From NCBI GenBank assembly GCA_016342755.1, contig JAEINS010000024.1, positions 1 to 64,000 of the forward strand: a stretch of DNA of 64,000 nt, given 5' to 3'. A program made the position numbers and the translations under genes. Of this stretch, positions 30,712 through 52,077 are shown one piece after another. The DNA is from Melioribacteraceae bacterium (GTDB taxonomy: Bacteria > Bacteroidota > Ignavibacteria > Ignavibacteriales > Melioribacteraceae). Position 1 is the first letter of the stretch, and each line of letters opens with the position of its first letter. The notes below the pieces were generated by a model, which searched no databases, was not told the origin of the DNA, and saw nothing but the letters and a program-made list of their open reading frames with translations.

Positions 30712-30768
30712 TTTAAATTCCTCATATCAATTTTCAATTTTGTTTGAATAAACTATAACTTAAATAGT

Positions 30769-34340: not shown

Positions 34341-35240
34341 ATGAAAATTAAAATTGATCATCTCTCAAAGATTTACAAAAATGGAAATAAAGCTGTAAAC
34401 GATGTAACACTAGACATTGATAGCGGAATGTTTGGTCTTCTGGGACCAAATGGCGCGGGCAAAACAACTTTAATGAGAATACTTGCAACTTTAATGACAG
34501 CATCATCCGGCGATGTAAAAATAAATGATCTCGATATATTAAATGATAGAGGTGCAATAAGATCGATGTTAGGTTTTCTTCCCCAGGATTTCAGTTCATT
34601 TCCAAAATTAAAAACATGGGAGTTCCTCGACTATTCGGCAGCACTTGCTGGAATTAAATTGAAGAAGGAAAGAATGCATTTAGTTGATGCAATGCTTGAT
34701 AAAGTAGGACTGCTTGAATTCAGAGACAGACAGGCAAAAAAACTTTCCGGTGGAATGAAACGCAGGTTAGGTATTGCACAAGCACTTATTGGAGATCCAA
34801 AGATATTAATAGTTGATGAACCAACTACCGGACTTGACCCCGAAGAGAGAATAAGATTTAGAAATATTCTTTCTGATATGAGCAGAAAAGAAATTGTAAT
34901 TATACTATCAACCCATATTGTTGGCGATATTTCCAGTACATGTAAAAAGATGGCTTTGTTAAACAAAGGTTCGGTTGCTTTTAACGGCACTCCGGATGAG
35001 TTAATAGATTTAGCGCGTGAACATGTTTTTAGAATTGAAGCCTTTGATAGTGATCTTGAAAATATAAAAGCAAACTATCCTGTTATATCAACTATACCTT
35101 CCGAAAACGGCTGGGATGTTGAAGTGGTTGCTAATAAACTGGGGGATTATAAAGGTGAAATAATTGAGCCTAATTTGGAACATGCCTATATGTATTTTAT
35201 GGAATATTTAGTTGAAGACGAAACAGTTAAAGTTTACTAA
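34341..35240 (+). CDS. ABC transporter ATP-binding protein
   Basis: 299 residues: Walker A LGPNGAGKTT, Q-loop FLPQDFSSFP, signature LSGGMKRRLG, Walker B ILIVDEPTTGLD and H-loop STHI. The C-terminal part after the ABC core ends with NLEHAYMYFMEY. It resembles the ATPases that serve ABC-2 type permeases, and it is a close relative of the ATPase domain at the end of the 44383 gene (both have GMFGLLGPNGAGKTTLMRI and ERIRFRN after Walker B). The permease gene follows after 16 bases. First gene of the long export operon. Confidence 0.93.
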   Translation: MKIKIDHLSKIYKNGNKAVNDVTLDIDSGMFGLLGPNGAGKTTLMRILATLMTASSGDVKINDLDILNDRGAIRSMLGFLPQDFSSFPKLKTWEFLDYSAALAGIKLKKERMHLVDAMLDKVGLLEFRDRQAKKLSGGMKRRLGIAQALIGDPKILIVDEPTTGLDPEERIRFRNILSDMSRKEIVIILSTHIVGDISSTCKKMALLNKGSVAFNGTPDELIDLAREHVFRIEAFDSDLENIKANYPVISTIPSENGWDVEVVANKLGDYKGEIIEPNLEHAYMYFMEYLVEDETVKVY

Positions 35241-35256
35241 TAAATGGAAAAAATAA

Positions 35257-38200
35257 ATGTTATCACTATATAACATAACTATAATAGCAAAATTTGAACT
35301 TAAAACATTATTGCGAAGCTGGTTCTTGAGAATATTTATTGTTTTAAGCCTTGCATTTCTGTTTATGTACGATCTGGTAACCATTACAAATGTATTTAAG
35401 CCTTTTATACCTAGGTCTATGTACGCATTGCCTTCTTCAACTCCTTACATAAACATGGTCCTTTTTAATCTAGCACAGGCAGTTATTGCTGTTTTCCTGT
35501 CATCCGATTTTTTTAAAAGGGATAGAAAACTAAATACAACCGAAGCAATTTATATTAGATCGATGAGTAACAGTTCGTACATTTTAGGAAAGGCAATCGG
35601 TATTTTATTTGTATTTGTTATCTTAAATGTTTTTGTCTTAGTATTAACCGGAACCATACATTATTTCTTTGGATTATCTGATGTAAATATATACGCATAT
35701 TTTTTATATCCGCTTGTAATAAGCCTGCCAACGCTGGTATTTATTATCGGGCTCACATTTTTCTTAATGGGAGTAATTAAAAATCAGGCCATTACATTTA
35801 TTATTTTACTTGGTTATATAGCTTCAGCAATTTTTTATTTAGGGCCGCAGATTGATCCAATATTTGATTACACAACAATGTGGTTTCCATTAATGTATTC
35901 AGATTTTGTAGGGTTCGGCAATGAATATGAAATTCTAATACATCGGGGATTATATCTTTTCGCGGGCATTGGATTAATATTTTTAACTATCCTGATGTTC
36001 AAACGCTTACCCCAGGAAGATTTAATAAGAAAGCTATCATTACCCGGAACTATTATCTCACTAATTGTTGTCCTATTCTCTATTTATTCATATATACTAA
36101 TACCTATTGAAAGAGAATCTTTAAGAACAGATATATATACGGCAAATTATGAGAGTTCAAAAATTCCCAGAGTAACAATAACTGATAACACTATTAGTTT
36201 AACTCATAAAAAAAATCATTTGGAATGCAGATCAGAAATAAAATTTGTTAATAAAAATGAGGAGTCGGTTACCGGTTATATTTTTAATCTGAATCCCGGG
36301 CTAATAGTAACATCGGTTACAAGTAAAAATAAAAACATAGAATTTGTAAATGAAAAAGGCCTGATAAGAATTACTCCTGATAAACAACTATTATCGGGAA
36401 ATAGTGATTCACTATTAATTTTTTATGAAGGACAAATTGACGAAAACGCATGTTATCTTGATATGGACGATGAAAGGCTTGATGAGTCGAAAAGACAGTT
36501 TGTATTCGGGATTAAAAAACGATATTCATTTTTAACAGAAAATTATGTCTTGTTAACAAATGAAAATCAGTGGTATCCTAATTCCGGTGTAAAATATTTA
36601 AGGAATAATCCATTCAGTTATAAAACGAATTTTATAAACTTTAAATTAAATGTAACAACAGATAAAAATCTTAATGTATTATCACAAGGTACCGAAACAA
36701 AATTAAATGAGTATGAAACCAGTTTTAATATGAGCAAGCCAATTCCGTTTATTTCACTTATAATTGGAGATTATGAAAAACGCTCAATAAAAGTAGACTC
36801 AGTTGATTACAGTCTTTATACTTTTGAGGGGCACAATTATTTTGATGAATATTTAAACGAAGTAGGTGATACACTCGGGACTTTAATAAGAGAACTTAAA
36901 AATAATTATGAAACTAAAATAGGTTTAGAATATAAGTTTAACAGACTCTCTTTAATCGAGGTTCCTGTCCAATATACTACATATAAAAGGGCCTGGACGG
37001 TTGCCCAGGAAAGCGGACAGCCGGAAATGATATTTTTAACTGAGAATGGATTTAATGTTGAAGCTGCGGATTTTAAATTATATAAGCAGGGTCAGGAAAG
37101 ATTTAGCGATAGAAGTAATCAGGTAATACTTGAAAAAGAAAAACAAGGCCAAATGTTCAACAACTTTATATCCTCAACATTATTTGATCAATCTAGAAAT
37201 ATGCGATTCCGTTCTCAAAGTGATTTGCAAAGTGCAGGGAACCCATTTTCAATATTTCCAAATTATTATTCTTATGTATACAAAGTATCTTCAGATAGTT
37301 ATCCGTTATTTAATACTTTGTTTGAAGGCTATTTAAAAGGTGATGAAGACGATTCCCCATTTTCAAGAAGACGTGTAATGGAAGCCATTACGCCAATTGA
37401 AAAAGCAGCAATTAGTTTGAGTGAAAAAGGAATTGCTGCCCATTTAAGTGATACACTTAAAAAAGATATATTGCCGGATATATTAGATATAAAAGGAGAT
37501 TATCTGTTTAACATGTTAAAGGGAATGATTAGCACAGAAAAATTATCTTCAATTATAAATAATATACTTTCTAATTCTCCCAACTCAGAAATTGATTTAG
37601 AGGTTTTTCATAAAAAAATATTAGAAGAAACAAGTATTGATATTTATAGCATGATGGATGAATGGTACAATCAGAACGGGCTGCCGGGATATTTAATAGA
37701 AAAAATTGAAAACTATAGATTTACAGAAGGTAACAGAGAAAAATATCAAGTCAGGTTTACGGTTACAAATCCGGAGAATGTGAGCGGAGTTATTAAAACC
37801 TCATTCTATGCGGCTGGCGGTCGTGGTGGAGGCAGAGGCGGCGGCAGATTTGGCTCTTTTGGCGGCAGTGGCGCGGATGAGGCAATTAGTGAACAAATTT
37901 TATTGCTGGGTTCTAAACAAACACTTGAGTACGGAATTGTATTGGATGAAGAACCACGGAGAATGAACATCAACACAATTTTATCATTAAATCTTCCGCT
38001 TGATATTGAAAAAACCTTTGAAGAATTTGAAGAGCGTAAAAAAGTTAAACCCTTTATAGGAAGTTTTCCGGTTGAACAAGGCCGTTTAATTAATAGTGGT
38101 GAAATAATAATAGACAATGAAGATTCGACATTTACATTTGTTAACACCAGTGATAGAAGCATGCTTAAGCAGTTACTGGATTTAGGAAATGATGATGAAA

Positions 38201-38613
38201 AATATAAAGGTGTCAGATTCTGGAATCCTCCAAATAATTGGACTGCAACTATACACTCTGATTTTTACGGCAAATATATACACTCTGCTCATTTTATTGG
38301 AGGAAGTGACGGCAGCAAATCAGTTTCATGGAACACAGAAATTTTATCCGGCGGTTATTATGATGTTTACGCCTACATTAGTAACGCTTTAACATTTGGA
38401 AGAAGAGGTCAAAATAATTCCAATACTAAATATCATTATAAAATACATAATGATGATGGTGTTGAGGATGTTGAGGTTGAAATTAATAATGCTGACAAGG
38501 GCTGGAATCTTTTAGGCAGATATTATTTTTCGGAAGGGAATTGCAAAGTTGAATTGACTGATGAAGGTGAAGGACTAATTATAGCAGATGCAATAAAATG
38601 GATAGCACAATAA
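35257..38613 (+). CDS. ABC permease fused to peptidase-M1-like and golvesin-C-like domains
   Basis: 1118 residues. Residues about 1-290 form an ABC-2 type membrane domain (several helices; FLSSDFFKRDRKLNTTEAIY loop). Residues about 300-830 resemble the M1-aminopeptidase-like part of Bacteroidota 'ABC permease/M1' fusions, but I find no HExxH zinc motif, so it is probably not a peptidase. A Gly/Arg-rich linker (GGRGGGRGGGRFGSFGG, about 853-869) follows. Residues about 976-1118 look like a golvesin C-terminal (xanthan-lyase type) carbohydrate-binding fold (GVRFWNPPNNWTATIHSDFYG, then GGYYDVYAYIS and IIADAIKWI). Pairs with the 34341 ATPase. The transported substrate is unknown. Confidence 0.8.
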   Translation: MLSLYNITIIAKFELKTLLRSWFLRIFIVLSLAFLFMYDLVTITNVFKPFIPRSMYALPSSTPYINMVLFNLAQAVIAVFLSSDFFKRDRKLNTTEAIYIRSMSNSSYILGKAIGILFVFVILNVFVLVLTGTIHYFFGLSDVNIYAYFLYPLVISLPTLVFIIGLTFFLMGVIKNQAITFIILLGYIASAIFYLGPQIDPIFDYTTMWFPLMYSDFVGFGNEYEILIHRGLYLFAGIGLIFLTILMFKRLPQEDLIRKLSLPGTIISLIVVLFSIYSYILIPIERESLRTDIYTANYESSKIPRVTITDNTISLTHKKNHLECRSEIKFVNKNEESVTGYIFNLNPGLIVTSVTSKNKNIEFVNEKGLIRITPDKQLLSGNSDSLLIFYEGQIDENACYLDMDDERLDESKRQFVFGIKKRYSFLTENYVLLTNENQWYPNSGVKYLRNNPFSYKTNFINFKLNVTTDKNLNVLSQGTETKLNEYETSFNMSKPIPFISLIIGDYEKRSIKVDSVDYSLYTFEGHNYFDEYLNEVGDTLGTLIRELKNNYETKIGLEYKFNRLSLIEVPVQYTTYKRAWTVAQESGQPEMIFLTENGFNVEAADFKLYKQGQERFSDRSNQVILEKEKQGQMFNNFISSTLFDQSRNMRFRSQSDLQSAGNPFSIFPNYYSYVYKVSSDSYPLFNTLFEGYLKGDEDDSPFSRRRVMEAITPIEKAAISLSEKGIAAHLSDTLKKDILPDILDIKGDYLFNMLKGMISTEKLSSIINNILSNSPNSEIDLEVFHKKILEETSIDIYSMMDEWYNQNGLPGYLIEKIENYRFTEGNREKYQVRFTVTNPENVSGVIKTSFYAAGGRGGGRGGGRFGSFGGSGADEAISEQILLLGSKQTLEYGIVLDEEPRRMNINTILSLNLPLDIEKTFEEFEERKKVKPFIGSFPVEQGRLINSGEIIIDNEDSTFTFVNTSDRSMLKQLLDLGNDDEKYKGVRFWNPPNNWTATIHSDFYGKYIHSAHFIGGSDGSKSVSWNTEILSGGYYDVYAYISNALTFGRRGQNNSNTKYHYKIHNDDGVEDVEVEINNADKGWNLLGRYYFSEGNCKVELTDEGEGLIIADAIKWIAQ

Positions 38614-38648
38614 TCAAATATAATTTGAGTAAGAAATTAGGTTATAAA

Positions 38649-40106
38649 ATGGAAAAAATATTTTTACTGGTTTGTATTTTACTCTTTAGTAACAATTATA
38701 CTAAGGCACAGACTATATTGAACATGGATGGAGCTTTAGAAATAGCTGAGGTTAATAGCCCAACTATTATAAAATCGAAGCTCAATTTAGAAAGGAGCAA
38801 AGAATCACTTAATGCTCAAAATGCTGCTTTAAAATCAAAATTCAATTTATCTATTACTCCTTTTGAATATTCGAAGGACAGAGTTTTTAATGACTACTTC
38901 TCGCAATGGAATACAAACGAAACTAAAAGGTCATCCGGTACTTTCAGTATTTCACAGCCCTTAAAATGGACTGATGGAACGTTATCGCTTATAGATAGAT
39001 TTTCATGGCAGGATGCTTTTAGTGAATTTAACAATGATAATGAAAAATCTTTCAGTAACAATCTGTATCTAAGTTATGATCAGCCATTATTCACATATAA
39101 CAGAACTATGCTTGAGCTGAAAGAGCTTGAGTATGATCTTGAAAATGCAACGCTAAGTTATGAAATGCAGAAATTGAATTTGAGAAAAAATGTTACTCAG
39201 GCGTTTTATGATGTATATCAAAAACAGCAGAGTATGGAAATTTCACAGGAAGAATATAATAGTCAGAAAAAAAATTATGATATAACAATCAATAAAGTTG
39301 ATGCCGGAATTTTAGCCCGGGAAGAATTATATCAGGCAGAATTAAACATGCTGAATAGTGACGCGGAATTAAAAACAAACAAGGTTCAGTTAGAAAATGC
39401 TCTGGATGATTTTAAGCAATTAATTGGAATGCCTTTAGATGAAGAGATTACAATTGTTACTGATATAACATTTAATCCGATTATGGTTGATCTTAAGAAG
39501 GCTTCGGAATATGGTTTAAATAACCGGATGGAATTGAGACAAAGAGAAATTGACATTGAGGCTTCACAGTTTAATATTATAAGAACATCTTCAATAAATG
39601 AATTTAAAGGTAATTTGTCGTTATCAGTAGGTATAATAGGAACTGATGAAAAATTAGCAAAGATCTACGATACCCCCACAAACAACCAGCAATTTGCGGT
39701 TACCTTCGATGTACCCCTATGGGACTGGGGCGAAAGTGATGCGCGTATTAAAGCTGCGGAAGCAAGTCTAAAAAGTTCTCAGGTTTCTTTTGAAGATGAA
39801 AAGATCAGCATACTAAAATCGATTAGAAGTGTTTACAGAAATCTAAATAATCTGGAAATGCAGATAGATATTTCTGAAAAAAGTGTAAGGAATGCTGAAC
39901 TGGCATATGAAATAAATTTAGAAAGATATAAAAACGGAGATTTAACCAGTATAGATCTCGATATTTTTCAGAATCAATTATCTCAGACCAAGTTAAATAG
40001 AATTAGTGCTTTACTAAATTATAAAATTGAATTATTAAATTTGAAAATACAGTCGCTATGGGATTTTGAACATGAAATTCCTGTGCTTAAAAAGTTTGAT
40101 AAATAA
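38649..40106 (+). CDS. TolC-type outer membrane efflux protein
   Basis: 485 residues from ATG 38649, which opens a signal peptide ending NNYTKAQ; the frame starts at 38598, inside the end of the permease gene, but that would put 17 residues before the signal. Two halves with long coiled-coil helices (LNLERSKESLNAQNAALKSK; DVDKV-type NKVDAGILAREELYQAELNML; IRSVYRNLNNLEMQIDISEK and YKNGDLTSIDLDIFQNQLSQ) mark the TolC fold. It forms the outer membrane duct for the pumps encoded next. Followed by the membrane fusion gene after 19 bases. Confidence 0.9.
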   Translation: MEKIFLLVCILLFSNNYTKAQTILNMDGALEIAEVNSPTIIKSKLNLERSKESLNAQNAALKSKFNLSITPFEYSKDRVFNDYFSQWNTNETKRSSGTFSISQPLKWTDGTLSLIDRFSWQDAFSEFNNDNEKSFSNNLYLSYDQPLFTYNRTMLELKELEYDLENATLSYEMQKLNLRKNVTQAFYDVYQKQQSMEISQEEYNSQKKNYDITINKVDAGILAREELYQAELNMLNSDAELKTNKVQLENALDDFKQLIGMPLDEEITIVTDITFNPIMVDLKKASEYGLNNRMELRQREIDIEASQFNIIRTSSINEFKGNLSLSVGIIGTDEKLAKIYDTPTNNQQFAVTFDVPLWDWGESDARIKAAEASLKSSQVSFEDEKISILKSIRSVYRNLNNLEMQIDISEKSVRNAELAYEINLERYKNGDLTSIDLDIFQNQLSQTKLNRISALLNYKIELLNLKIQSLWDFEHEIPVLKKFDK

Positions 40107-40125: not shown

Positions 40126-41175
40126 GTGAAAAAGTATTTCAGCTTTTTATTTTTGATGTTGTTTTTAATAGGGTGTACCGGCAATGATACGGATTTTGAT
40201 ACAGATATTTCCGTACCAGTTTCGGTTGAAGATGTAAAGTATAAATCAATAGAACAGTTTATAGAAACAACAGGAACAGTTATGCCTGTTAAGGAAGCTG
40301 TTTTAAGTTCAGAAATCGGCGGGAAATATTCACTGCAAATAAATCCCGGCACAAAGAGGAATTATTCACTTGGCGATTTGGTTAAAAAAGGTGAAGTAAT
40401 TATTAAAATTGAAGATGAAGAATTTGCAAATGAAATACGAATTGATCTGAAAAAACATTCCCTCGATAACGCACTTAGCGAATATGAAAAACAGAAATCA
40501 ATTTACGACAAAGGCGGTGTTACTTTACGTGAGTTAAACACATCTGAAACAGATTATTTAAATGCAAAGTATACTTACGAGAATGCTGTTATTCAGTTAG
40601 AAAAAACAAAAGTGAAATCACCTTTTGACGGAGTAATTGTTGATATCCCATATTATACTGAAAATGTTAAAATCTCAACAGGCAGACAGGTTCTAAAGGT
40701 TATGAATTATTCTGAGCTATATATGGAAATAAATCTGCCGGAAAAATTATTGGACAAAATAAATGTTAAACAAAGTGCCCGTATAATGAATTATACAATT
40801 GAGGATGATACACTGAAAGGAACAATTTCGCAAATATCGCCGGCTATAGATACACAAACAAGAACTTTTGAGGCGACCTTAAAAATTGAAAATAACGAGA
40901 GATTATTAAGACCCGGTATGTTTGCAAAAGCTGAATTAATTATTGCAAAAAAAGATAGTGTATTAGTTATACCTAAAGATATAATATTATCTAAGCAACG
41001 CGGTAAAACAGTTTTTGTTGTTGCTAAAGGTGCTGCCCGGGAAGCTGTTATAACAACGGGACTTGAGAATCCTACACATGTAGAAGTAGTTAAAGGATTA
41101 AAGCTTAATGAACGCATTGTTACAAAGGGTTTTGAGACTCTTCGCAATAGAAGCAAAGTGAAAATTATTAAGTAA
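40126..41175 (+). CDS. RND efflux membrane fusion lipoprotein
   Basis: 349 residues starting at GTG with AGGAG upstream. Lipoprotein signal (lipobox FLIGC). Order: beta strand, lipoyl-like half (SSEIGGKYSLQINPGTKRNYSLGDLVKKGEVII), a short alpha hairpin (SLDNALSEYEKQKSIYDKGGVTLRE), second lipoyl half (VKSPFDGVIVDI), beta barrel (QTRTFEATLKIENNERLLRPGMFAKAEL) and membrane-proximal domain. Bridges the inner membrane pumps to the TolC-type protein. The next gene is 118 bases away with a REP-like sequence between. Confidence 0.92.
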   Translation: MKKYFSFLFLMLFLIGCTGNDTDFDTDISVPVSVEDVKYKSIEQFIETTGTVMPVKEAVLSSEIGGKYSLQINPGTKRNYSLGDLVKKGEVIIKIEDEEFANEIRIDLKKHSLDNALSEYEKQKSIYDKGGVTLRELNTSETDYLNAKYTYENAVIQLEKTKVKSPFDGVIVDIPYYTENVKISTGRQVLKVMNYSELYMEINLPEKLLDKINVKQSARIMNYTIEDDTLKGTISQISPAIDTQTRTFEATLKIENNERLLRPGMFAKAELIIAKKDSVLVIPKDIILSKQRGKTVFVVAKGAAREAVITTGLENPTHVEVVKGLKLNERIVTKGFETLRNRSKVKIIK

Positions 41176-41293: not shown

Positions 41294-44200
41294 ATGAAAA
41301 AGCTAATTCAGTTTTCAATAGAATACCCGGTAACAATAATGATGGTTATATTGGGCGTTTTGCTGCTTGGGTATATTTCTTTTGACAGATTAAGTATTGA
41401 TCTTTTCCCTGATCTTAATAATCCCAGATTGTTTATCGATTTACAAGTTGGCGAAAAACCTCCCGAGGAGATTGAAAAAAATTATACCAAAGCAGTTGAA
41501 TCAATTGCGATACAGCAAAAAGGAGTTACACAGGTTTCTTCCGTAACTAAGGTTGGTGTGGCGCAGATAACGGTAGAGTATAGTTGGGATAAAGATATGG
41601 ATGAGGCTTTTCTCGATTTACAAAAAACAGTTACAAGTTTAGCTCAAAACCTTGAAGTTGATGATATAAGCATTTCACAAGTCGATCCAAACTCTGATCC
41701 CGTTATGACCGTGGCATTCTCTAACCCGAATATTACAGATATGGATAATTTAAGGAAGACCGCTGAAAACTATATTAGAAATGAACTGATTAGAATTGAA
41801 GGAATTGCTGATATTGAATTAGTTGGTATTGAAGAAAAAGAAATAGATATAGAAACAAATAATTATATGCTTGCGGCGCATTCATTAACTCTGGAACAAT
41901 TAAAATCTCAGATAGAAAAATTTAACGCTAATATATCTGGCGGATCTATTGTTGAAATGGGCAAGAAGTATATTATAAAGGGTGTAAGTGTATTCCAAAC
42001 TATTGATGATATTAAAAAAACAATTGTAAGTTATAAATTAACCGCTGAAGGTGATAGTCTAAAAAAAGTTCCGGTATATCTTTCGGATGTTGCCTCGGTA
42101 GTTTATAAAAATAAAGATCCTGAGAATATTGTAAGGCTTAATGGAAAAAGATGTGTAGGTCTTTCAGTTTATAAAGAGACCAAGTATAATACAGTTAAAG
42201 CAATTGAAGAACTTAAAGTAGCTTTAAAGGAAATCTCCAATGCCTTGCCCGGATATGAATTTGTTGTAATTCAAAACCAGGGTGAATTTATTCAAAACTC
42301 CATTGAGGAAGTTGAAGAAACAGCATTGATAGGAATTATATTAGCGGTTCTAATTCTATACATATTTCTTAGGCATATTGGTACTACAACTATTATCAGT
42401 ATTGCAATCCCAATATCCATAGTGGCAACTTTTAATTTAATGTATTTTAATGGATTAACACTTAACATAATGACTTTAGGCGGACTTGCCTTAGGTGCGG
42501 GAATGCTGGTTGATAATGCTATTGTTGTGATGGAAAATATTTTTAGAAATTTAGAAGCCGGAGAATCAGTTAAAGAAGCGGCAATAAAAGGCACTTCACA
42601 AGTTGGAGGAGCTATAATATCCTCTACAGTAACAACAATAATTGTTTTTCTTCCCATTGTATATTTGCACGGAGCTTCCGGCGAATTGTTTAAAGATCAG
42701 GCATGGACAGTGGCGTTCTCACTAATCTCATCTTTATTTGTCGCAATATTTCTTATACCATTATTGAGTACAAAGTTTTTAAAAAATCATACTTCTAAAA
42801 AACAGAAAAAGTCTATTCAATTTAAGAGTTATAAATCCTTTCTAAATAAAGTGCTGGATAAAAGTATTTTGGTTATGACTCTGGCTTTAATCTTAATAAT
42901 TGGTTCTTATTTTCTAATACCGGTTATAGGCAGCGAGTTTATGCCGAAGACAAATTCAAGTGAAATTACATTAGAAATAAAATTAGATGAAGGAACCGGA
43001 TTAGAACTAACAGCTTCAACTGTTTCATCACTTGAACATCTTATTACAGAAATTGTTGGTGAAGATCTCAAATATTTATATAGCAATATTGGAGCCTCTA
43101 AAACATCTACATCCGATATTGGATCTTTGTTTAATGATGAAAACTATGCTGAACTGAAAATTGTTTTAAATGATGAATCAATTGGCAGATCGGGTATAAT
43201 TATTAATAATTTGATGCAGGGACTTGAGGTTACTGAAGATATAGAAATTAGTATTAGTACCGATAAGACACCGCTTGCGCAAATACTTGGAACTGAAGAT
43301 ACACCGATAGTTATTGAGATAAAAGGAGATGACCTTGAAGTTCTTGAAGCAATTTCTGAACAAGTAAAATCAAAACTTTTAGCAATGGATGAATTATCAA
43401 ATATCCAAACCAGTTTTGAAAAGGGTGCGCCGGAGATTGATGTACAGATTGACAGAGTACGGGCTGGTTTATTTAATCTTGGTGTTAATGAAATTAGTTC
43501 GCAGGTGCAGGATAAATTAAGCGGTAAGGATGCCGGCGATTGGGAATATGAAGGTGAAATGAAAGATATAACCTTAAGTATTCCTGATGTTTCGCTGCTA
43601 GAATTAGAAAACATGATTTTAAATAGCGGCACAAGTGTAATAAGACTAAATGAAGTAGCTGTTATAAGTGAGAAAAATGCGCCAAAAGAAATAAACAGGC
43701 GAAACCAAAGCAGAATTGGTAAAATAACATCGCAGTTAAATGATAATGTTATTTTTGATCACATTGTGAAAAAGATTACCAATGAACTCTCTGATATTCC
43801 GCTGGAACCAAATTATAAAATTGAAGTTGCAGGCCAGGAGTTAAAAAGACAAGAATCAATGAGCAATCTGGTATTTGCTTTTCTACTTTCTATAATTTTA
43901 GTTTATATGGCTTTGGCATCGCAGTTCGAATCGCTTCTTTATCCATTTACAATTTTATTAACAATCCCGCTAGCCGGTGTGGGAGCTGTTTTTATATTCT
44001 TAATTCTTGGTATGCCGTTTAATATTATGGCTTTTATAGGAATAATTATGCTTGTCGGAATTGCTGTTAACGATTCTATCATATTAGTAGATGCAATTAA
44101 TCAGCTTAAAAAAGAAGGTCTGGAATTACGTGCTGCTATTATTGAAGCAGGAACCAGACGTATTAGACCAATTGTAATGACAAGTTTAACAACTATTTTA

Positions 44201-44371
44201 GCATTATTACCATTAACATTAGGGATTGGTGAAGGCGCGTCTTTAAGATCGCCAATGGCTTTAGCGGTTATAGGAGGATTAATAACCTCAACAATATTAA
44301 CCTTAATCGTAATTCCTTGTGTTTATTTGTCTGTAGATAAATTAAAAGAAAAATTCAATTTCAGTAAGTAA
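41294..44371 (+). CDS. RND efflux pump, inner membrane protein 1
   Basis: 1025 residues, the standard RND length with 12 membrane helices and two large periplasmic loops. N-terminal SIEYPVTIMMVILGVLLLGYISF; helix 4 carries the proton-relay Asp in GAGMLVDNAIVVMENI (D407); helix 10 has GIAVNDSIILVDAI, lacking the Lys of AcrB, as is common in Bacteroidota HAE1 members. RRIRPIVMTSLTTILALLPL and GAS-type C-terminal helices are present. It expels drugs, lipids or other compounds using proton flow. 11 bases before a second RND gene, so the two may form a mixed trimer as MdtB/MdtC do. Confidence 0.93.
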   Translation: MKKLIQFSIEYPVTIMMVILGVLLLGYISFDRLSIDLFPDLNNPRLFIDLQVGEKPPEEIEKNYTKAVESIAIQQKGVTQVSSVTKVGVAQITVEYSWDKDMDEAFLDLQKTVTSLAQNLEVDDISISQVDPNSDPVMTVAFSNPNITDMDNLRKTAENYIRNELIRIEGIADIELVGIEEKEIDIETNNYMLAAHSLTLEQLKSQIEKFNANISGGSIVEMGKKYIIKGVSVFQTIDDIKKTIVSYKLTAEGDSLKKVPVYLSDVASVVYKNKDPENIVRLNGKRCVGLSVYKETKYNTVKAIEELKVALKEISNALPGYEFVVIQNQGEFIQNSIEEVEETALIGIILAVLILYIFLRHIGTTTIISIAIPISIVATFNLMYFNGLTLNIMTLGGLALGAGMLVDNAIVVMENIFRNLEAGESVKEAAIKGTSQVGGAIISSTVTTIIVFLPIVYLHGASGELFKDQAWTVAFSLISSLFVAIFLIPLLSTKFLKNHTSKKQKKSIQFKSYKSFLNKVLDKSILVMTLALILIIGSYFLIPVIGSEFMPKTNSSEITLEIKLDEGTGLELTASTVSSLEHLITEIVGEDLKYLYSNIGASKTSTSDIGSLFNDENYAELKIVLNDESIGRSGIIINNLMQGLEVTEDIEISISTDKTPLAQILGTEDTPIVIEIKGDDLEVLEAISEQVKSKLLAMDELSNIQTSFEKGAPEIDVQIDRVRAGLFNLGVNEISSQVQDKLSGKDAGDWEYEGEMKDITLSIPDVSLLELENMILNSGTSVIRLNEVAVISEKNAPKEINRRNQSRIGKITSQLNDNVIFDHIVKKITNELSDIPLEPNYKIEVAGQELKRQESMSNLVFAFLLSIILVYMALASQFESLLYPFTILLTIPLAGVGAVFIFLILGMPFNIMAFIGIIMLVGIAVNDSIILVDAINQLKKEGLELRAAIIEAGTRRIRPIVMTSLTTILALLPLTLGIGEGASLRSPMALAVIGGLITSTILTLIVIPCVYLSVDKLKEKFNFSK

Positions 44372-44382
44372 GATTAAATTTC

Positions 44383-47300
44383 ATGGATCTATTAAAAATA
44401 GTTGTTGAAAGAAAAACGTTTGTAAGTATGGTCTTTATTGGACTTTCGCTTCTTGGATATATTTCATATAGAAATTTACCAGTCGAGTTATATCCTAATA
44501 CTGAATTGCCAATGCTCTTTATTCAGGTTAATTCAATTCAGGAGGTTAATCCTTCTTATATGGAGAATCAGGCAATTATACCTTTGGAAGGTGCTATTGG
44601 TACCCTTGAAGGTATTGAAAGTATTGACTCTTATGTTGATAGCAGAAGTGGAATGATAACCATTTTTTATGAGCAAAATATTAACACAAAATATGCTTAC
44701 CTAAAACTAAATGAAAAAATTGAAAATGCGAAATCGAAACTGCCCGAAGGATTTATTGTTAATGTATTAAAGATTGATACTGAGAAATTAACAAATCAGT
44801 TTATTGATCTTGAAGTGCGCGGTTCCGGCGGATCTGACAGAGTAAGAAATATTGTTGAAGAAAAAATACTTCCGGTTCTTGAAAGTGTGGATGGAATCGC
44901 AAATGTTGAAGTTACAGGAGGCAGGCAAAAATCGGTAGAGATTATTCTTCGAAAAGAAATATCTGAAGCCTATGGAATAACGCCATCCAGAATCAGCAGT
45001 CTGATTAATCAATATAATAAGTCTACAACATTTGTCGGGGAGACATATAAAAACAATGCAAGATATTTTGTAAACGTATCCTCGGAAACTGATGATATTA
45101 CAGAGATAGAAAATATAATAGTTATTCGGCAGGGTCCGGTTAGATTAAAAGATATAGCTGATATATCTTTTGGTGTAAAAGAAGAAGAAACTCTTAGCAG
45201 GGTAAACGGAAAGGAATCAGTTACAGTACAACTTATAAGGGATTCACAAGTTAATCTGATTGAACTGTCGCATAAAACACAAGATGTAATTACTGATCTG
45301 AATAACAAACTAAGTTACCTGGATGTTGAAATTTATATTCAGCGAAATACAGCTGAAGAAATTGAACGGAATATTGATTTAATTATAGAACTGGCTCTGG
45401 TAGGCGGATTGCTGGCTATATTTATTCTTTGGATATTTTTGCGAAATTTTCAATTAGTTATAACAGTTGCTCTGGCAATCCCGATTTCTGTTTTTACAGC
45501 ATTCAACTTCTTTTATTATTTTGATATATCTATAAATAGCCTGACTCTTATTGGAATTGCATTAGCAGTCGGGATGCTCCTGGATAATAGTGTAGTTGTT
45601 CTCGAAAATATTTACAGGCTTTCTTCGTCAGACAAAAATTATAATAATACAGTTGTACAAGGCACCAAAGAAGTATGGCGTTCTATAATGGCCGCTACAC
45701 TTACTACAATAACTGTATTTCTTCCGTTTGTATTTTCTACAAATTTTCTGGTCAGCTTATTTGGCACTCATATCGGTGTATCAATTGTTTCTACCTTAAT
45801 AATCTCTCTATTAGCAGCACTTTTTCTGGTTCCAATGATCACTCACTATTTTTTATTGAGAAAGAAAAAGAATCAAAAAGTTTTTGAAAGATTAGGACTC
45901 GACAACAGACTAATTCAGATTTATTTAGTTTTGCTGAAATCATGTATAAGATTTCCGGCCAGAACCATAATAGGAGCGGTTATAATTTTCTTCGCAAGTA
46001 TATTTATAGCTTTAGCGGTAAGTATAAGTGTATCAAACGAAGTTGAAACAGATTCTTTTAATCTATACGCAACAATGCCGGAAGGATCTACACTTGAATT
46101 TTCGGATGAGTTAACAAAAGAGATTGAGGGGAAATTAGAGAATCTTAAAGAGAAAGAAAGTGTCACTAGTAGAATTTATGAAGATCAGTCTATACTGACT
46201 ATTAAGCTGAAAGAAGATTATTCATCAATTGATAATAAAAGTATTGAAGATATAAAATCGAATATTCAAAATTCTGTTAACAGTATTAACAATGCTGAAA
46301 TAGGATTTGATCAGCCGCAGTCTAATCAGCGTTTTGGCGGCGGCAGCGGAATGAACATGCTGAACCGATTTGAAAGGATGATGGGAATCGGTTCTCAAAG
46401 GGAAACGGTTCTGATTAAAGGCAGCGATTTTGAAAAAATGAGAAACGTCGCGAATGATATTAAATATTATCTGGAAGATCTTTCCTCGGTTAATTATGCA
46501 AATGTTTCAGTAGCGGGCAACCGACCGGAAATACATTTGTTATTTGATACACACATAATGAGTCAGTTCGATATTCCTCTAACATCAGTGTTAAGTGAAC
46601 TTAATACATTCAGAAAAGAATTTACTTCAAATACAAAATTTAAGCAGGGCGTTGATGAATATGATATAACTATTAGAACTGAGGATCCCGGTGCTGATAA
46701 TGACAAAACGATGGAGGATTTAAGAAAGCTGGTTATTACTGCAAATTCCGGTTCAAGTTTTGAACTGCATGATATAAGTAAAATTATTTATGCAAGCGGA
46801 ATGTCTTCTATTACCAGAGTTAATCAGGAAAAACAAATTGAAGTATCATACCAATTCCTGTCAGAAATAAATGAATCGAATGATCTTCTTGATAACGCAA
46901 AATTAGAAATTGAAGAACTTGTTTCAAGTTTAGTTATTCCTTCTGGTATTGCAATTGAAGTAGTTCAGGAAGATGACGAATTTGAAGAGTATTATTTCTT
47001 AATTGGTGTTGCAATACTTCTGATCTATATGATTCTGGCTTCAATATTTGAATCTTTAATAACACCGCTTGTACTAATGTTTTCAATACCCTTGGCAGCT
47101 ATAGGTTCCTTAGGAGCACTTATAATTACTGGTAACTCACTTCTTAATACTAATACGTTAACCGGATTTTTAATTCTGTTAGGAGTTGTTGTTAACAATG
47201 GAATTATTCTTATTGATTATTCACGGATACTTAGGAAAAGAGGTTACGGTAAACTGCGGGCAATTGTTACGGCAGGTATGGCGCGGACACGCCCGATTGT

Positions 47301-49053
47301 TATAACAGCTATTACTACCATTATAGCTATGTTTCCGCTGGCAATGGGTGAATCGGAATATGTAGCCGCAATTGGAGCGCCGTTTGCAATTACGGTTATT
47401 GGCGGTTTAGCTGTAAGCACATTGTTTACACTTATATTTATTCCAACATTTCACTCTGGTCTTGATAATGCAATTAAATGGATTCGTGAATTAGACTTAA
47501 TAAGTAAAATCCTTCAACTCATAGTGTTCATAGCACTTTCTGCAATTGTCTATTATGAAGTTGATAGTTTTATTTGGCAGCTTGTAGATTGGTTCTTAGT
47601 TATTATTACAGTTCCTGCTATAACTTATTTTATTAAAACCAGCTTAAGACGCGCGGATGAAAAAATAATTGCCGATGGTGAAGATATAATTATTAAGATC
47701 CAGAACCTGGTTAAAGTTTATGATGCCGATTCCCGTTTTATGCGTGAATGGAAAAAAGGAAAAGCTAAACTTAATAAATTTTATGATCCGGCTAATTATA
47801 TCTGGGAAATTCCGTTCTTTGGATTCCTGATCTATTTTAATTATTTCTATTTGAACAAAGGATTTTGGATTTTCTTTCTTGCGCATATAATTTTCTTCTA
47901 TCTTCTCTATTTAATAAAGAATGTGGTGACGAAAATAAATTCAGAAAATAAAGTAATCAAATTTATTAGCGGAAATTTATATAAGGTCATTTTCTGGGGA
48001 TTCCCTACGTTAAATCTTGTTATATTTTACTTAATGTGGAAAAGCCTCACACTTATTGTTTTCATCGCGGTTCTATGGTATGCGGCTCTTCTTGTTTATT
48101 CCACATCGCGGAAATTGTACAAAGGATTAATCACAATTGAAATTAATCCGAAAGGATTAAGAAAAGTTAGAAATAATTATTATAAACTGGTAAAACATAT
48201 TCCAATAATTGGGAAACAGAAAAAACCATTTAAAGCATTAAACAGAGTTACACTTGAAATTGGGAACGGAATGTTTGGATTACTGGGGCCAAATGGAGCT
48301 GGTAAAACTACCCTAATGCGAATTATCTGCGGTATACTTGAACAAAGTTATGGTAAAGTCTGGATTAACGGAATTGATAGGAACGAAATGCGTGAGGAAC
48401 TTCAAGGTTTAATTGGTTACTTGCCGCAAGAGTTTGGTACGTACGAAAATATGACTGCTTTCGAATTTCTTAATTACCAGGCTATTCTAAAAAATATTTT
48501 GGATAAAGATAAACGTGAAGCAATGGTGAAGTATGTTCTTGAATCAGTTCACATGTATGAGAAAAAAGATGATAAGATTGGCTCCTTTTCTGGCGGAATG
48601 AAACAGAGAATTGGTATCGCGCAGATTCTTCTGCATCTTCCTAAGATTCTTGTTGTTGATGAACCAACAGCCGGACTTGATCCTCGTGAGAGAATTAGAT
48701 TCAGAAATCTGCTTGTGGAACTGGCTCAGGACAGGATTGTTATATTTTCCACACATATAATTGAAGATATTTCAAGTTCATGCAGTAAGGTTGCGGTTCT
48801 AAACAGCGGAGAAGTGAAGTATGTGGGTGAACCCGCTAAGATGGCGGAAATTGCCGAAGGAAAAATCTGGCAGTTGAAAGTGTCGCAAAGTGAATTTGAA
48901 AAACTGCAAAATGAATATGTAATTATAAATCACATGCGAGATGGTGATAGGATTAGAATAAGATGTATAGCCGGGAAACAGCCGCATGAAGATGCAATTG
49001 CTATAAAACCTAGTCTGGAAGATGCTTATTTGTGTTTGCAAAAGAGCGGTTAA
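44383..49053 (+). CDS. RND efflux pump fused to an ABC ATPase
   Basis: 1556 residues in one unbroken frame. Residues 1-1025 are a complete RND pump (helix 4 GMLLDNSVVVLENI, D401; TRPIVITAITTIIAMFPLAMG). Two further helices follow (about 1038-1085). The first ABC strand IIIKIQNLVKVYD comes at 1102-1114, then about 165 residues with about four helices (for example FGFLIYFNYFYL, GFWIFFLAHIIFFYLLYLI), and then the remaining ABC domain: PFKALNRVTLEIGNGMFGLLG with Walker A GPNGAGKTT (1302-1310), Q-loop YLPQEFGTY, signature SGGMKQR (1403-1409), Walker B LVVDEP (D1426, E1427) and H-loop STHI (H1458). All ABC motifs are intact, so it can probably hydrolyse ATP. The ABC permease at 49158 is the likely partner. 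Confidence 0.9.
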   Translation: MDLLKIVVERKTFVSMVFIGLSLLGYISYRNLPVELYPNTELPMLFIQVNSIQEVNPSYMENQAIIPLEGAIGTLEGIESIDSYVDSRSGMITIFYEQNINTKYAYLKLNEKIENAKSKLPEGFIVNVLKIDTEKLTNQFIDLEVRGSGGSDRVRNIVEEKILPVLESVDGIANVEVTGGRQKSVEIILRKEISEAYGITPSRISSLINQYNKSTTFVGETYKNNARYFVNVSSETDDITEIENIIVIRQGPVRLKDIADISFGVKEEETLSRVNGKESVTVQLIRDSQVNLIELSHKTQDVITDLNNKLSYLDVEIYIQRNTAEEIERNIDLIIELALVGGLLAIFILWIFLRNFQLVITVALAIPISVFTAFNFFYYFDISINSLTLIGIALAVGMLLDNSVVVLENIYRLSSSDKNYNNTVVQGTKEVWRSIMAATLTTITVFLPFVFSTNFLVSLFGTHIGVSIVSTLIISLLAALFLVPMITHYFLLRKKKNQKVFERLGLDNRLIQIYLVLLKSCIRFPARTIIGAVIIFFASIFIALAVSISVSNEVETDSFNLYATMPEGSTLEFSDELTKEIEGKLENLKEKESVTSRIYEDQSILTIKLKEDYSSIDNKSIEDIKSNIQNSVNSINNAEIGFDQPQSNQRFGGGSGMNMLNRFERMMGIGSQRETVLIKGSDFEKMRNVANDIKYYLEDLSSVNYANVSVAGNRPEIHLLFDTHIMSQFDIPLTSVLSELNTFRKEFTSNTKFKQGVDEYDITIRTEDPGADNDKTMEDLRKLVITANSGSSFELHDISKIIYASGMSSITRVNQEKQIEVSYQFLSEINESNDLLDNAKLEIEELVSSLVIPSGIAIEVVQEDDEFEEYYFLIGVAILLIYMILASIFESLITPLVLMFSIPLAAIGSLGALIITGNSLLNTNTLTGFLILLGVVVNNGIILIDYSRILRKRGYGKLRAIVTAGMARTRPIVITAITTIIAMFPLAMGESEYVAAIGAPFAITVIGGLAVSTLFTLIFIPTFHSGLDNAIKWIRELDLISKILQLIVFIALSAIVYYEVDSFIWQLVDWFLVIITVPAITYFIKTSLRRADEKIIADGEDIIIKIQNLVKVYDADSRFMREWKKGKAKLNKFYDPANYIWEIPFFGFLIYFNYFYLNKGFWIFFLAHIIFFYLLYLIKNVVTKINSENKVIKFISGNLYKVIFWGFPTLNLVIFYLMWKSLTLIVFIAVLWYAALLVYSTSRKLYKGLITIEINPKGLRKVRNNYYKLVKHIPIIGKQKKPFKALNRVTLEIGNGMFGLLGPNGAGKTTLMRIICGILEQSYGKVWINGIDRNEMREELQGLIGYLPQEFGTYENMTAFEFLNYQAILKNILDKDKREAMVKYVLESVHMYEKKDDKIGSFSGGMKQRIGIAQILLHLPKILVVDEPTAGLDPRERIRFRNLLVELAQDRIVIFSTHIIEDISSSCSKVAVLNSGEVKYVGEPAKMAEIAEGKIWQLKVSQSEFEKLQNEYVIINHMRDGDRIRIRCIAGKQPHEDAIAIKPSLEDAYLCLQKSG

Positions 49054-49157: not shown

Positions 49158-49880
49158 ATGATGTTTAGCAAATTTAATCTAAGAAATAATATAGATCTCA
49201 TAGATAAATTATTCCGATATAATCTGAAAATAATTTTTGCCAATAAATTTATTTACTTCCTATTGGCAGCGGTTGGTTTTTTCATTTTTGTAACTATAGT
49301 TAGTTTGTTTTCATCATCCGATTCAAACGTACAATCCGTTTATTATTTACAGTTATTTCCAGGCATACTATTAATCTTTTATCCAACTACATTTGGTATT
49401 CAGAATGATGAAGATTCACGAATGCTAGAAATAATTTTTTCCATTCCCAATTACCGTTACAAGGTTTGGCTTGTTAGAATGATAATCATTTACATTATAG
49501 TTTTTGCGCTTCTAATAGTATTATCAATTCTTAGTTATTTTGCAATCGCGGTTGTCCCGATTTTTGAAATGTCATATCAGCTTATGTATCCAATATTTTT
49601 CCTGGGCAGTTTTGCTTTTATGATCTCTACTGTAATCCGCAACGGAAACGGCTCCGCTATTATTATGATAATTATCGGACTCGTTTTTTGGATATCCAGC
49701 GGAATATTGCAGTACAGCGAATGGAATATTTTTCTAAATCCATTCGATTTACCTCGAGATGTTAGTGAAGTAATTTGGCAGACAGTTATGACAAACAACC
49801 GGCTTTACCTTTTAGCCGGAATAATTCTAACGCAATTATTTGGATTGTTTAATCTGCAGAATAGAGAAAAGTTTGTTTAG
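49158..49880 (+). CDS. ABC-2 type permease
   Basis: 240 residues with about six membrane helices (NKFIYFLLAAVGFFIFVTIVS, QLFPGILLIFYPTTFG, MIIIYIIVFALLIVLSIL and others) and a conserved FGIQNDEDSRMLEIIFSIPNYRYKVWLVRM loop like that of ABC-2 proteins. It is the natural membrane partner of the ATPase domain fused to the preceding RND pump. GGAG precedes the ATG. A nine-codon frame (49132-49161) upstream overlaps its start by ATGA and could couple translation. Last gene of the operon; a strong terminator follows. Confidence 0.85.
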   Translation: MMFSKFNLRNNIDLIDKLFRYNLKIIFANKFIYFLLAAVGFFIFVTIVSLFSSSDSNVQSVYYLQLFPGILLIFYPTTFGIQNDEDSRMLEIIFSIPNYRYKVWLVRMIIIYIIVFALLIVLSILSYFAIAVVPIFEMSYQLMYPIFFLGSFAFMISTVIRNGNGSAIIMIIIGLVFWISSGILQYSEWNIFLNPFDLPRDVSEVIWQTVMTNNRLYLLAGIILTQLFGLFNLQNREKFV

Positions 49881-49938: not shown

Positions 49939-52077
49939 TTACTTAACCAAACTCATCTTCTTAACCTGAACAAAATTACCACTTTGCAATTTATAAAAAT
50001 ATATTCCGCTATTTAAATTAGATGCATCAAATGTGATTTTATACGTTCCGGCAGATTGAGCTTTATTCACTAATGTTTTTATTTCGTTTCCAAGTACATC
50101 ATAAATTTTGAGCTGCAGGATCGAGGTATGCTTCGACTCGACGATGGGAATTGAGTATTCTATTGTTGTTGCCGGATTAAACGGATTAGGATAATTTTGT
50201 TCAAGCGAAAATCCTATTGGCAACCTGTCTTCTTCAGAAGTACCTGTAATATTAGTTATTTCAAATGGATTATCAGATAAATCATAAGTAGTTAACTTTG
50301 CATTATCCTGAACAGCTATAATACAGTCAGTTGAAATATCTTCCGGTACCAGCCATCTATAAATGCCAAATTGAGCGGTAGTTGACGGAACTATTGTTTT
50401 CCAGGTTGAACCGCTGTTGAGAGAATATCTTAAGCGAACATTATCTATCAATTGGGATTGCCATGTTATTTCTAATATGCTTCCAACGGGCAATATTTCA
50501 CCCCCGTTTGGTGATAATAAGATAACTTCTGGCTCAGCATTTTTTTCATAAACATTTATTTTATTAAAATTAAAATTACCGTTTGATATGTTAACTTTTA
50601 GAATATGATTTCCTTCTGTAAGCTCAACTTCATTTGAAACAACATCTTTCCATGTTTGCCATCCGCCGGTAGAATTTATACTGATATTCCCGGTTACATC
50701 AATTCCGTCAATTTCAATATTAAAACTTCCGCCGCTGCTTTCACTTGCAACCCTTGATGTAAATACATAAGAACCAGTGCCGGTTACATTTATTGAATAT
50801 GCAAGCCATTCATTTGCCTGAGTCCAGCCAATATTATAACCTCCGCCTAAATCTTCGCACACCTCTATATCTACAGAATTATTTCTATAAGTAGAACCGG
50901 TATTGCTGGCATCTTTATCAGAATAAGATATTCCTTCCTTTCCTAAATCATAATCTTCCAACTGAATAACTCCCGGAATTGTATGATAATATCCTTTGTA
51001 GGAAGACTGTGACACACTTTCGCCAACAACAATATGTATTTTCTCAGATTCTCCCACAATACCTGTTGTTGAATAAGTTTTTGCTGAAATAGTATAAGAG
51101 CCGGCTTCAACATTATTCCAGTTCATATTGTAAGGCTCAACAACTGTCTCACCAATTAATGCTGCATCCTGATAAAATTCTACTTTCTCTATTTCATCTT
51201 CAAAATCGACATTAGCAGTTATATTTATCGGAGCATGAACAGAAAAAGTGCTGTTATTACTTGGTTCTGTAATGTTTATCTCCGGGTACAGGTTTGATAA
51301 CTGATAAACTCTTACATAATCAATTTCCATTGTTTGAGGAAACACTGTTGAAGAATTTGGTGAACCAGGCCAGTTTCCGCCTACCGCAAGATTAAGCAGT
51401 ATAAAATGTTTTTTATGAAACTCATCCATATGAGCAGCAGTTATATCAACTGTATTAAATAGCTTGTCATCAACAAACCACTGAATTTTCTGCGGATCCC
51501 AGATAACAGAAAAGAGATGAAAGGCTTCAGAAAAATTGCCGGTGCTTAGAGTATAATTTCCTCCGTAACTTGCATGTCCGTTATCATCCCAGTGAACAGT
51601 GCCATGACTTATATTGTCCCTTCCTTCTCCGCCAACCATTTCCATTATATCAATCTCACCACACTTTGGCCAGCTTACCTGAGAAATATCATTTCCAAGA
51701 GTCCAGAATGCAGGCCATATTCCTTGTCCGTAAGGAAGTCTTATCATTGCTTCAATTTTTCCGTACTGAAATTCTTGTTTATCCTTAGAAATTAATCTTG
51801 CCGAAGTATAAGCACTGCCGCCGTAATTTTCTTTTATAGCTTTAATTGTTAATCTGCCGTTTCCAACATAAGAATTATCTTCTCTATCAGTATAATATTG
51901 AAATTCGGCATTTCCCCAGCCGTGTCCGCCGGTCTCATGAGTCCAGTTAGAATCGTTTATTTCAGTTCCGTTAAATTCATCAGCCCATGCTAAACGGTAA
52001 TATTGCGAATAGAAATTTTGAGTTGAGAAAAATAAAATTGTGATACAAAGAAATGAAATTCGTTTTGCATAAAACAT
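49939..52077 (-). CDS. secreted GH16 beta-glucanase with Ig-like, CBM6 and type IX sorting domains
   Basis: 712 residues. Signal peptide (about 1-24), GH16 catalytic domain (about 25-260) with the catalytic motif GEIDIMEMVGG (nucleophile E141, D143, acid/base E146), laminarinase/lichenase type; a Big_9/Ig-like domain (about 265-350; PEINITEPSNNSTFSV); a CBM6-like module (about 360-500; QLEDYDLGKEGISYSDKD, ANEWLAYSINV); another Ig-like module; and a C-terminal sorting domain (about 625-712; SLEQNYPNPFNPATTIEYSI, IKTLVNKAQSAGTYKI, NSGIYFYKLQSGNFVQVKKM). It is exported by the type IX system and degrades beta-1,3 or mixed-linkage glucans. Stands alone. Confidence 0.92.
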   Translation of the reverse strand: MFYAKRISFLCITILFFSTQNFYSQYYRLAWADEFNGTEINDSNWTHETGGHGWGNAEFQYYTDREDNSYVGNGRLTIKAIKENYGGSAYTSARLISKDKQEFQYGKIEAMIRLPYGQGIWPAFWTLGNDISQVSWPKCGEIDIMEMVGGEGRDNISHGTVHWDDNGHASYGGNYTLSTGNFSEAFHLFSVIWDPQKIQWFVDDKLFNTVDITAAHMDEFHKKHFILLNLAVGGNWPGSPNSSTVFPQTMEIDYVRVYQLSNLYPEINITEPSNNSTFSVHAPINITANVDFEDEIEKVEFYQDAALIGETVVEPYNMNWNNVEAGSYTISAKTYSTTGIVGESEKIHIVVGESVSQSSYKGYYHTIPGVIQLEDYDLGKEGISYSDKDASNTGSTYRNNSVDIEVCEDLGGGYNIGWTQANEWLAYSINVTGTGSYVFTSRVASESSGGSFNIEIDGIDVTGNISINSTGGWQTWKDVVSNEVELTEGNHILKVNISNGNFNFNKINVYEKNAEPEVILLSPNGGEILPVGSILEITWQSQLIDNVRLRYSLNSGSTWKTIVPSTTAQFGIYRWLVPEDISTDCIIAVQDNAKLTTYDLSDNPFEITNITGTSEEDRLPIGFSLEQNYPNPFNPATTIEYSIPIVESKHTSILQLKIYDVLGNEIKTLVNKAQSAGTYKITFDASNLNSGIYFYKLQSGNFVQVKKMSLVK

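Follow-up and report, generated by a model that had tools for sequence, protein, structure and literature searches.

An RND permease and an ABC ATPase form one 1556-residue protein in a seven-gene operon of a Melioribacteraceae bacterium, and the same fusion, with its neighbouring genes, is conserved at 29 further genomic loci. The operon was analysed in a window of 64,000 nucleotides, which is the whole stretch of DNA considered here. On balance, we favor the interpretation that the operon encodes a composite exporter, in which an RND assembly is joined to one of two ATPases belonging to an ABC exporter from the same operon. This architecture and gene order suggest a coupling of ATP-driven flipping to RND/TolC export.

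Operon organization

The seven genes are arranged in the following order:

34341–35240, + strand: NBD1, a stand-alone DrrA/GldA-like ATPase (Pfam, NCBIfam)
35257–38613, + strand: TMD1-Golvesin (TMD1), 1118 aa, with a membrane part at its N-terminus, a large extracytoplasmic portion and Golvesin_C
38598–40106, + strand: TolC-type outer membrane factor (Pfam OEP)
40126–41175, + strand: periplasmic adaptor of the RND_mfp / HlyD type, above the NCBIfam TIGR01730 cut-off
41294–44371, + strand: RND1, the second RND permease, 1025 aa, unfused (Pfam)
44383–49053, + strand: RND2::NBD2 fusion, 1556 aa in a single open frame (Pfam ACR_tran and ABC_tran), with 29 further loci
49158–49880, + strand: TMD2, a 240 aa permease with a predicted type V/ABC-2 fold

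The adaptor and TolC-type partner that mark a HAE1-type RND permease are both encoded alongside, and the two RND permeases, RND1 and RND2, are 26% identical. No ATPase other than NBD2 adjoins TMD2 in the operon.

About 2 kb upstream of the operon, a TldD/PmbA metallopeptidase pair is encoded on the opposite strand (29392–32319, − strand), with an amidohydrolase (32506–34179) between the pair and the operon. Directly past the operon lies a GH16 glycoside hydrolase (49939–52077, − strand) that bears both a CBM6/CBM35-type module and a sorting tail for type IX secretion, and a 1067 aa sensor kinase with two-component-regulator propeller repeats is found at 5244–8447. The 15 largest non-operon clusters around the further loci (L050–L078), where most flanks stop short of the upstream side, did not reveal a substrate or regulator gene that recurs. 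By their look, most of these clusters are antisense or alternative readings of the operon genes, and ordinary genes on the downstream side are common to some Bacteroidales loci.

The fusion protein

The frame at 44383–49053 is open over all 1556 residues and contains both ACR_tran (PF00873, residues 4–1024, E 3.9e-154) and ABC_tran (residues 1287–1430, E 8e-28). The first-pass annotation had described an unbroken frame running from a complete RND pump, with the helix 4 aspartate, into an ABC domain with intact motifs that is close to the stand-alone ATPase at 34341. Each of these points is borne out below and the covalent fusion is real; as a picture of the protein, however, an RND pump running into an ABC domain was too simple, since it overlooked six linker transmembrane (TM) helices, a split NBD and the completeness of the operon. 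The segments of the fusion are:

44383–47463, + strand: RND2 permease part, residues 1–1027 (Pfam; residue counts in 25 fusions)
47497–47649, + strand: two extra TM helices following RND TM12, residues about 1039–1089 (hydropathy, AlphaFold2 helices)
47680–47724, + strand: predicted first strand of the NBD with the A-loop Tyr, IKIQNLVKVY, residues 1104–1113, preceding the four-TM segment
47791–48120, + strand: four-TM segment predicted to lie inside the NBD, residues about 1137–1246, without a Pfam family
48229–49050, + strand: rest of NBD2, residues 1283–1556, with Walker A/B, signature, Q- and H-loop

Judged by its sequence, the RND half is a complete HAE1-type RND permease. Residues D401, R968 and T975, which we take to correspond to AcrB D407, R971 and T978, are present, and asparagines (N402 and N938) occupy the positions of AcrB D408 and K940. 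The D407, R971 and T978 equivalents are kept in all 25 fusions examined, and the two asparagines in 23 of them. This D N N R T pattern is also the commonest in unfused RND proteins (17 of 33 from other loci, and 15 of 23 within the fusion loci), so that the RND2 half looks like an ordinary working RND protein of the lineage. Relatives in the PDB include CmeB and MdtB, and RND2 scores under the curated cut-offs of the NCBIfam RND_permease_1/2 models (NF033617, 433.8 of 1250 bits; NF000282, 312.2 of 1250).

NBD2 displays every element expected of an ABC ATPase: a Walker A motif (GPNGAGKT, 1302–1309), a signature (SGGMKQ, from 1403), a Walker B motif with its glutamate (D1426/E1427), an H-loop (H1458), a Q-loop (Q1349) and an A-loop aromatic residue (Y1113). 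No variation occurs at Y1113, K1308, Q1349, S1403, G1404, D1426, E1427 or H1458 in any of the 28 fusions aligned, the window included (28 of 30 rows, with L067 and L077 omitted as partial). NBD2 is also the best conserved module, with 59–76% identity to the window across the loci, compared to 42–68% for RND2 (a range that omits the 70% of a short RND fragment in L077) and 30–46% for the linker. Because the best conserved module also has invariant catalytic residues, NBD2 is expected to use ATP. Its closest relative in its own genome is NBD1, with 44% identity over 268 aa, and the remaining NBD matches there reach 35% at most. DrrA/GldA-type models are the best among the NCBIfam ATPase models for both NBD1 and NBD2; NBD2 falls below the curated cut-offs (GldA, 169 of 402.6 bits; drrA, 154.6 of 312.45 bits).

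Linker helices and a predicted discontinuous NBD

Six TM helices, arranged as two plus four, are predicted in the linker from the hydropathy of the window protein and from the average over 30 sequences, in which hydrophobic peaks occur at about residues 1044–1061, 1065–1082, 1143–1152, 1161–1179, 1198–1212 and 1219–1236. Lys plus Arg outnumber Asp plus Glu in three of the four linker loops expected to be cytoplasmic; the short loop after RND TM12 has no positive excess (Lys/Arg 1.8 versus Asp/Glu 1.6). The linker was not recognizable as a known domain, with a best Pfam E-value of 0.018 among 30 members and matches scattered over unrelated families, and no sequence match to it was found in the PDB at E up to 1.

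An AlphaFold2 model of fusion residues 860–1556 was built from 28 sequences and is of moderate quality, with a mean pLDDT of 74.5 and a pTM of 0.53 (two of the five models near 74, three at 60–63). The model places a strand at residues 1104–1112 (model residues 245–253), followed by the four-TM helices and then by the NBD, and the pLDDT is about 88 at model residues 241–250, around this first strand. Structure 1vpl, of which 234 of 238 residues can be superposed, spans the model range 243–695 (Z 27.2, rmsd 1.8), and 4yer_B superposes over 265 residues (Z 28.5, rmsd 3.4). The alignments of solved NBDs, for which only end points are given, begin at about model residues 241–244, near the strand. 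Since nearly all of 1vpl is aligned, its first strand falls on model residues from 243 on.

The same strand was located by sequence. A position-specific matrix was constructed from eight stand-alone ATPases of the same genome, namely NBD1 and seven of 13 that were fetched; the six left out comprise three without a recognizable Walker A frame and three outside the strand pattern. The best ten-residue window of the whole fusion protein is IKIQNLVKVY at 1104–1113, with a score of 11.9 against 6.9 for the next, and the equivalent window ranks best within the linker in all 29 relatives. The A-loop Tyr is separated from the first Gly of Walker A by 22–28 residues in the eight stand-alone ATPases, versus 189 residues in the window fusion and 193–204 in its relatives. 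NBD2 thus does not have an uninterrupted chain from strand 1 to Walker A, as the four-TM segment intervenes. A nearly invariant REW motif stands immediately ahead of this segment. Prediction and sequence together suggest that the NBD2 chain is interrupted, after its first strand, by four membrane helices. We know of no other NBD split by a membrane segment, which would be an unusual build for an ABC motor.

The placement of the strand also bears on whether the single chain might be processed in vivo to yield a conventional RND protein and a separate, conventional ABC ATPase. Such processing would be compatible with the sequence, but we regard it as very improbable, as the NBD begins with a strand located ahead of the four-TM segment, and a cut between this segment and the NBD body would leave the NBD incomplete.

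Conservation of the fusion and its operon

An alignment of five linkers was used to scan a species genome collection of 84,980 species, and 29 further fusion loci were found by this linker pattern, whose reach ends short of unfused or differently linked relatives. By title, the loci belong mostly to Bacteroidota groups, and also to Melioribacteraceae, Chlorobiota, candidate division KSB1, Krumholzibacteriota and Aminicenantes, while two are titled only 'bacterium'. Title and kinship conflict for some of them. Four loci (L050, L052, L053 and L071) belong to the family of the window, where they recur among the family genomes counted below, and are titled Melioribacteraceae, Melioribacteraceae, Chlorobiota and Bacteroidetes, respectively.

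All 29 loci are free of stops from the linker through the end of the NBD, and the RND part shares this frame in 28, the contig of L067 beginning within the linker. The entire fusion is contained in a single frame at 22 loci. Five fusions are interrupted by a contig end (L050, L065, L067, L068 and L077), and in L055 and L066 the RND part is broken once or twice, in N-containing frames and at a distance of more than 1 kb upstream from the junction. Sequencing error, which the first-pass annotation had allowed for as a flaw in the frame, is therefore excluded as the cause of the fusion. An assembly or sequencing artefact might be suspected, as all 29 relatives are titled metagenome-assembled genomes; however, the loci come from different assemblies in which the frame continues into the NBD and the next gene downstream is retained, and the fusion is also present in phylum genomes of 99–100% completeness (G512, G583 and G725), which leaves an artefact with a negligible likelihood.

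At least five of 79 genomes of the family carry the fusion, the window's own included (G000, G046, G035, G002 and G053, with few candidates scored per genome); in G053, the fusion gene is divided between two contigs. A linker-only query found the identical five genomes among 164 of the order. In wider samples that likewise include the window's own genome, at least four of 391 genomes of the class and at least five of 395 of the phylum have the fusion; both values are lower bounds, with six candidates scored per genome and chance-level linker matches excluded. The matches set aside as chance, in G003, G145, G041 and G515, are partial (E 7e-5 to 4e-4) and run across stop codons in three of the four cases; the matching frame in G003 resembles an apolipoprotein N-acyltransferase by eye. 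No linker match was found on plasmids in 72,556 records.

The RND2 part was also used as a query against 390 genomes of the phylum, with two candidates scored per genome, a depth at which a hidden exception is possible. Among the matches listed, five genomes (the window included) have a relative of at least 49% identity, and these relatives are all fused, in frames of 1561–1640 aa. The next-best relatives listed are at most 30% identical and unfused, in frames of 1009–1085 aa and, in one case, 1206. An unfused RND2 ortholog, or a stop between the two parts in homologues as the first-pass annotation had envisaged, was not seen among the matches listed from these genomes.

These data can be set against a passive tether, in which the ABC exporter and the RND pump would work independently at different steps and be joined for a fixed ratio and proximity. 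Each half has kept its own functional residues, and fusion commonly keeps partners together. Nevertheless, a mere tether would not need a membrane-split NBD, yet the NBD appears split in all 29 relatives, and the matches listed hold no unfused version. We consider this explanation improbable, although clearly less so than cleavage.

A tree of 27 fusions, from which L055, L067 and L077 were left out as short, requires two changes of the label Bacteroidota and places the Aminicenantes row on a long branch. It is compatible both with and without horizontal transfer, neither of which it proves or excludes. The most divergent fusion is that of L073 (Aminicenantes by title, GC 0.66), with 42% (RND2) and 59% (NBD2) identity to the window; its 264 kb contig contains TMD1, TolC, adaptor, RND1, fusion, TMD2 and NBD1. 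In another genome, the fusion frame (G725:C62:2457-6557) has 1640 aa, and both its linker and its RND part align as two pieces separated by a gap of ~90 bases, pointing to two insertions of some 30 residues.

The surrounding operon is conserved with the fusion. TMD2 is the next operon gene downstream at all 29 loci, which answers in the affirmative the proposal of the first-pass annotation to check whether the fusion is conserved with the permease at 49158. On the upstream side, wherever the contig reaches, RND1 (24 of 24), the adaptor (21 of 21), TolC (20 of 20) and TMD1-Golvesin (17 of 17) are present. NBD1 was sought in 14 genomes that contain loci from this set of 29; ten of them have an ortholog of 58–71% identity ~14 kb upstream of the fusion NBD, on its contig and strand. 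The best NBD1 match is on other contigs in G765, G773 and G774, and no NBD1 match is listed for G767, where the contig is apparently too short to reach. A TMD1 ortholog was found in all six fusion genomes tested for it.

The membrane proteins TMD2 and TMD1

TMD2 is predicted to have a six-TM type V/ABC-2 fold. In its AlphaFold2 model (pLDDT 82.7), the best structural matches are the membrane domains of NosY, ABCG and ABCA proteins, with Z 16.4 and rmsd 3.6 over 214 residues for NosY (7znq_y) and Z of about 15 for ABCG2 and ABCA1. The Foldseek E-values are weak (best 0.02, none below 0.001), and ABC transporters or CcmB-type subunits make up all of the top 20 hits. Pfam matches are below threshold, with ABC2_membrane_3 in five of 12 members (best E 0.0022) and Acyl_transf_3 in four of 12.

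About six TM helices are also present at the N-terminus of TMD1, as judged from sequence, and the Golvesin_C domain is well supported (Pfam, E 3e-15). The N-terminus gives a Pfam E-value of 0.92 for ABC-2 and a probability of 1.4% in a profile comparison with TMD2. No PDB sequence match was found for TMD1. A role of the extracytoplasmic part as an active M1 peptidase was not supported, as HExxH occurs in none of five proteins; a sub-threshold Peptidase_M1 match (E 4.2e-4) was obtained for L040 alone among four TMD1 proteins scanned.

The invariable position of TMD2 is relevant to another arrangement, in which NBD2 would act on the RND protein itself: nucleotide binding would be relayed via the added helices to RND TM12 and gate or power its cycle, with TMD2 being secondary. 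The layout of the chain lends itself to this, as the NBD is attached to RND TM12 by two helices and appears wrapped round four more, and Y1113 is invariant and the REW motif before the four-TM segment nearly so. On the other hand, the gene after the fusion at 29 of 29 loci encodes a permease predicted to adopt a type V ABC membrane fold, which would otherwise have no adjacent ATPase, and the D N N R T residues of RND2 are no different from the commonest pattern of unfused RND proteins. An action of NBD2 on the RND protein is thus unlikely, if somewhat less so than a passive tether.

Proposed mechanism

The composite exporter that we favor would consist of two assemblies. RND1 and RND2, together with the adaptor and TolC, would form a putatively proton-driven RND assembly; NBD1 and NBD2 would form an ABC exporter with TMD2, and probably TMD1, as its membrane parts. 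According to the model, the two pieces of NBD2 around the four-helix segment could hold the ATPase at the membrane beside the RND protomer, where NBD2 most likely pairs with NBD1. ATP would then drive TMD2, and probably TMD1, whose ABC roles are presumptive, and a substrate, perhaps lipid-like or an envelope component, would be moved to the outer face of the inner membrane. The tethered RND/adaptor/TolC conduit may take over the substrate there and carry it outside. In its simplest form, the system would be a heterodimeric ABC exporter tied covalently, via RND2, to an RND/adaptor/TolC conduit.

A tighter integration of the two energy sources is conceivable, and we put it forward tentatively. 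One polypeptide would couple proton-driven RND cycling to ATP hydrolysis, the split NBD would relay conformational change between the ABC-2 and RND parts, and a single substrate would leave the inner membrane and be exported by way of RND, adaptor and TolC within one machine.

Comparison with known systems

MdtABC-TolC and other two-RND HAE1 pumps resemble the present operon in having an adaptor, a TolC-type factor and two different RND permeases per operon. To our knowledge, MdtB and MdtC are without an ATPase or extra helices, whereas RND2 continues into six further helices and an NBD. The likeness to MacAB-TolC lies in an ABC ATPase encoded with an adaptor and TolC; in contrast to MacAB-TolC, the ATPase is fused to an RND protein here and the permease is predicted to be of the ABC-2/type V kind. 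Pfam gave no match to a FtsX/MacB-type domain in the fusion (E up to 0.001) or in 12 TMD2 sequences (E up to 1).

NosFY/DrrAB/ABCG-like type V exporters are related through NBD1 and NBD2, which match DrrA/GldA-type models, and through the TMD2 model, which resembles NosY and ABCG. Unlike in these exporters, one of the NBDs is covalently joined to an RND pump and, by prediction, split by four TM helices. The ArsA-ArsB arsenite pump, in which a secondary carrier can also be run by an associated ATPase, is a precedent for a transporter with two energy sources; that pump belongs to other protein families and is not known to have a covalent RND-ABC fusion or a TolC conduit.

By convention, RND and ABC exporters are placed in distinct superfamilies that draw on different sources of energy. 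Although each module of the operon belongs to a known superfamily, the combination fits no described tripartite pump that we know of. The first-pass annotation knew of no described mechanism for this architecture, and a narrow search of the open-licence PMC literature, in which absence is no proof, likewise returned no description of an RND-ABC fusion; nor did a search for the terms in one review (PMC8277102). The fused RND-ABC architecture is in our assessment categorically new, although automatic protein databases may well list the domain pair.

The occurrence of RND and ABC modules in one protein, within an operon that is kept across several phyla as judged by title, implies that the combination is functional. 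With both modules in one chain, direct coupling of primary and secondary active transport becomes testable in a single purified protein.
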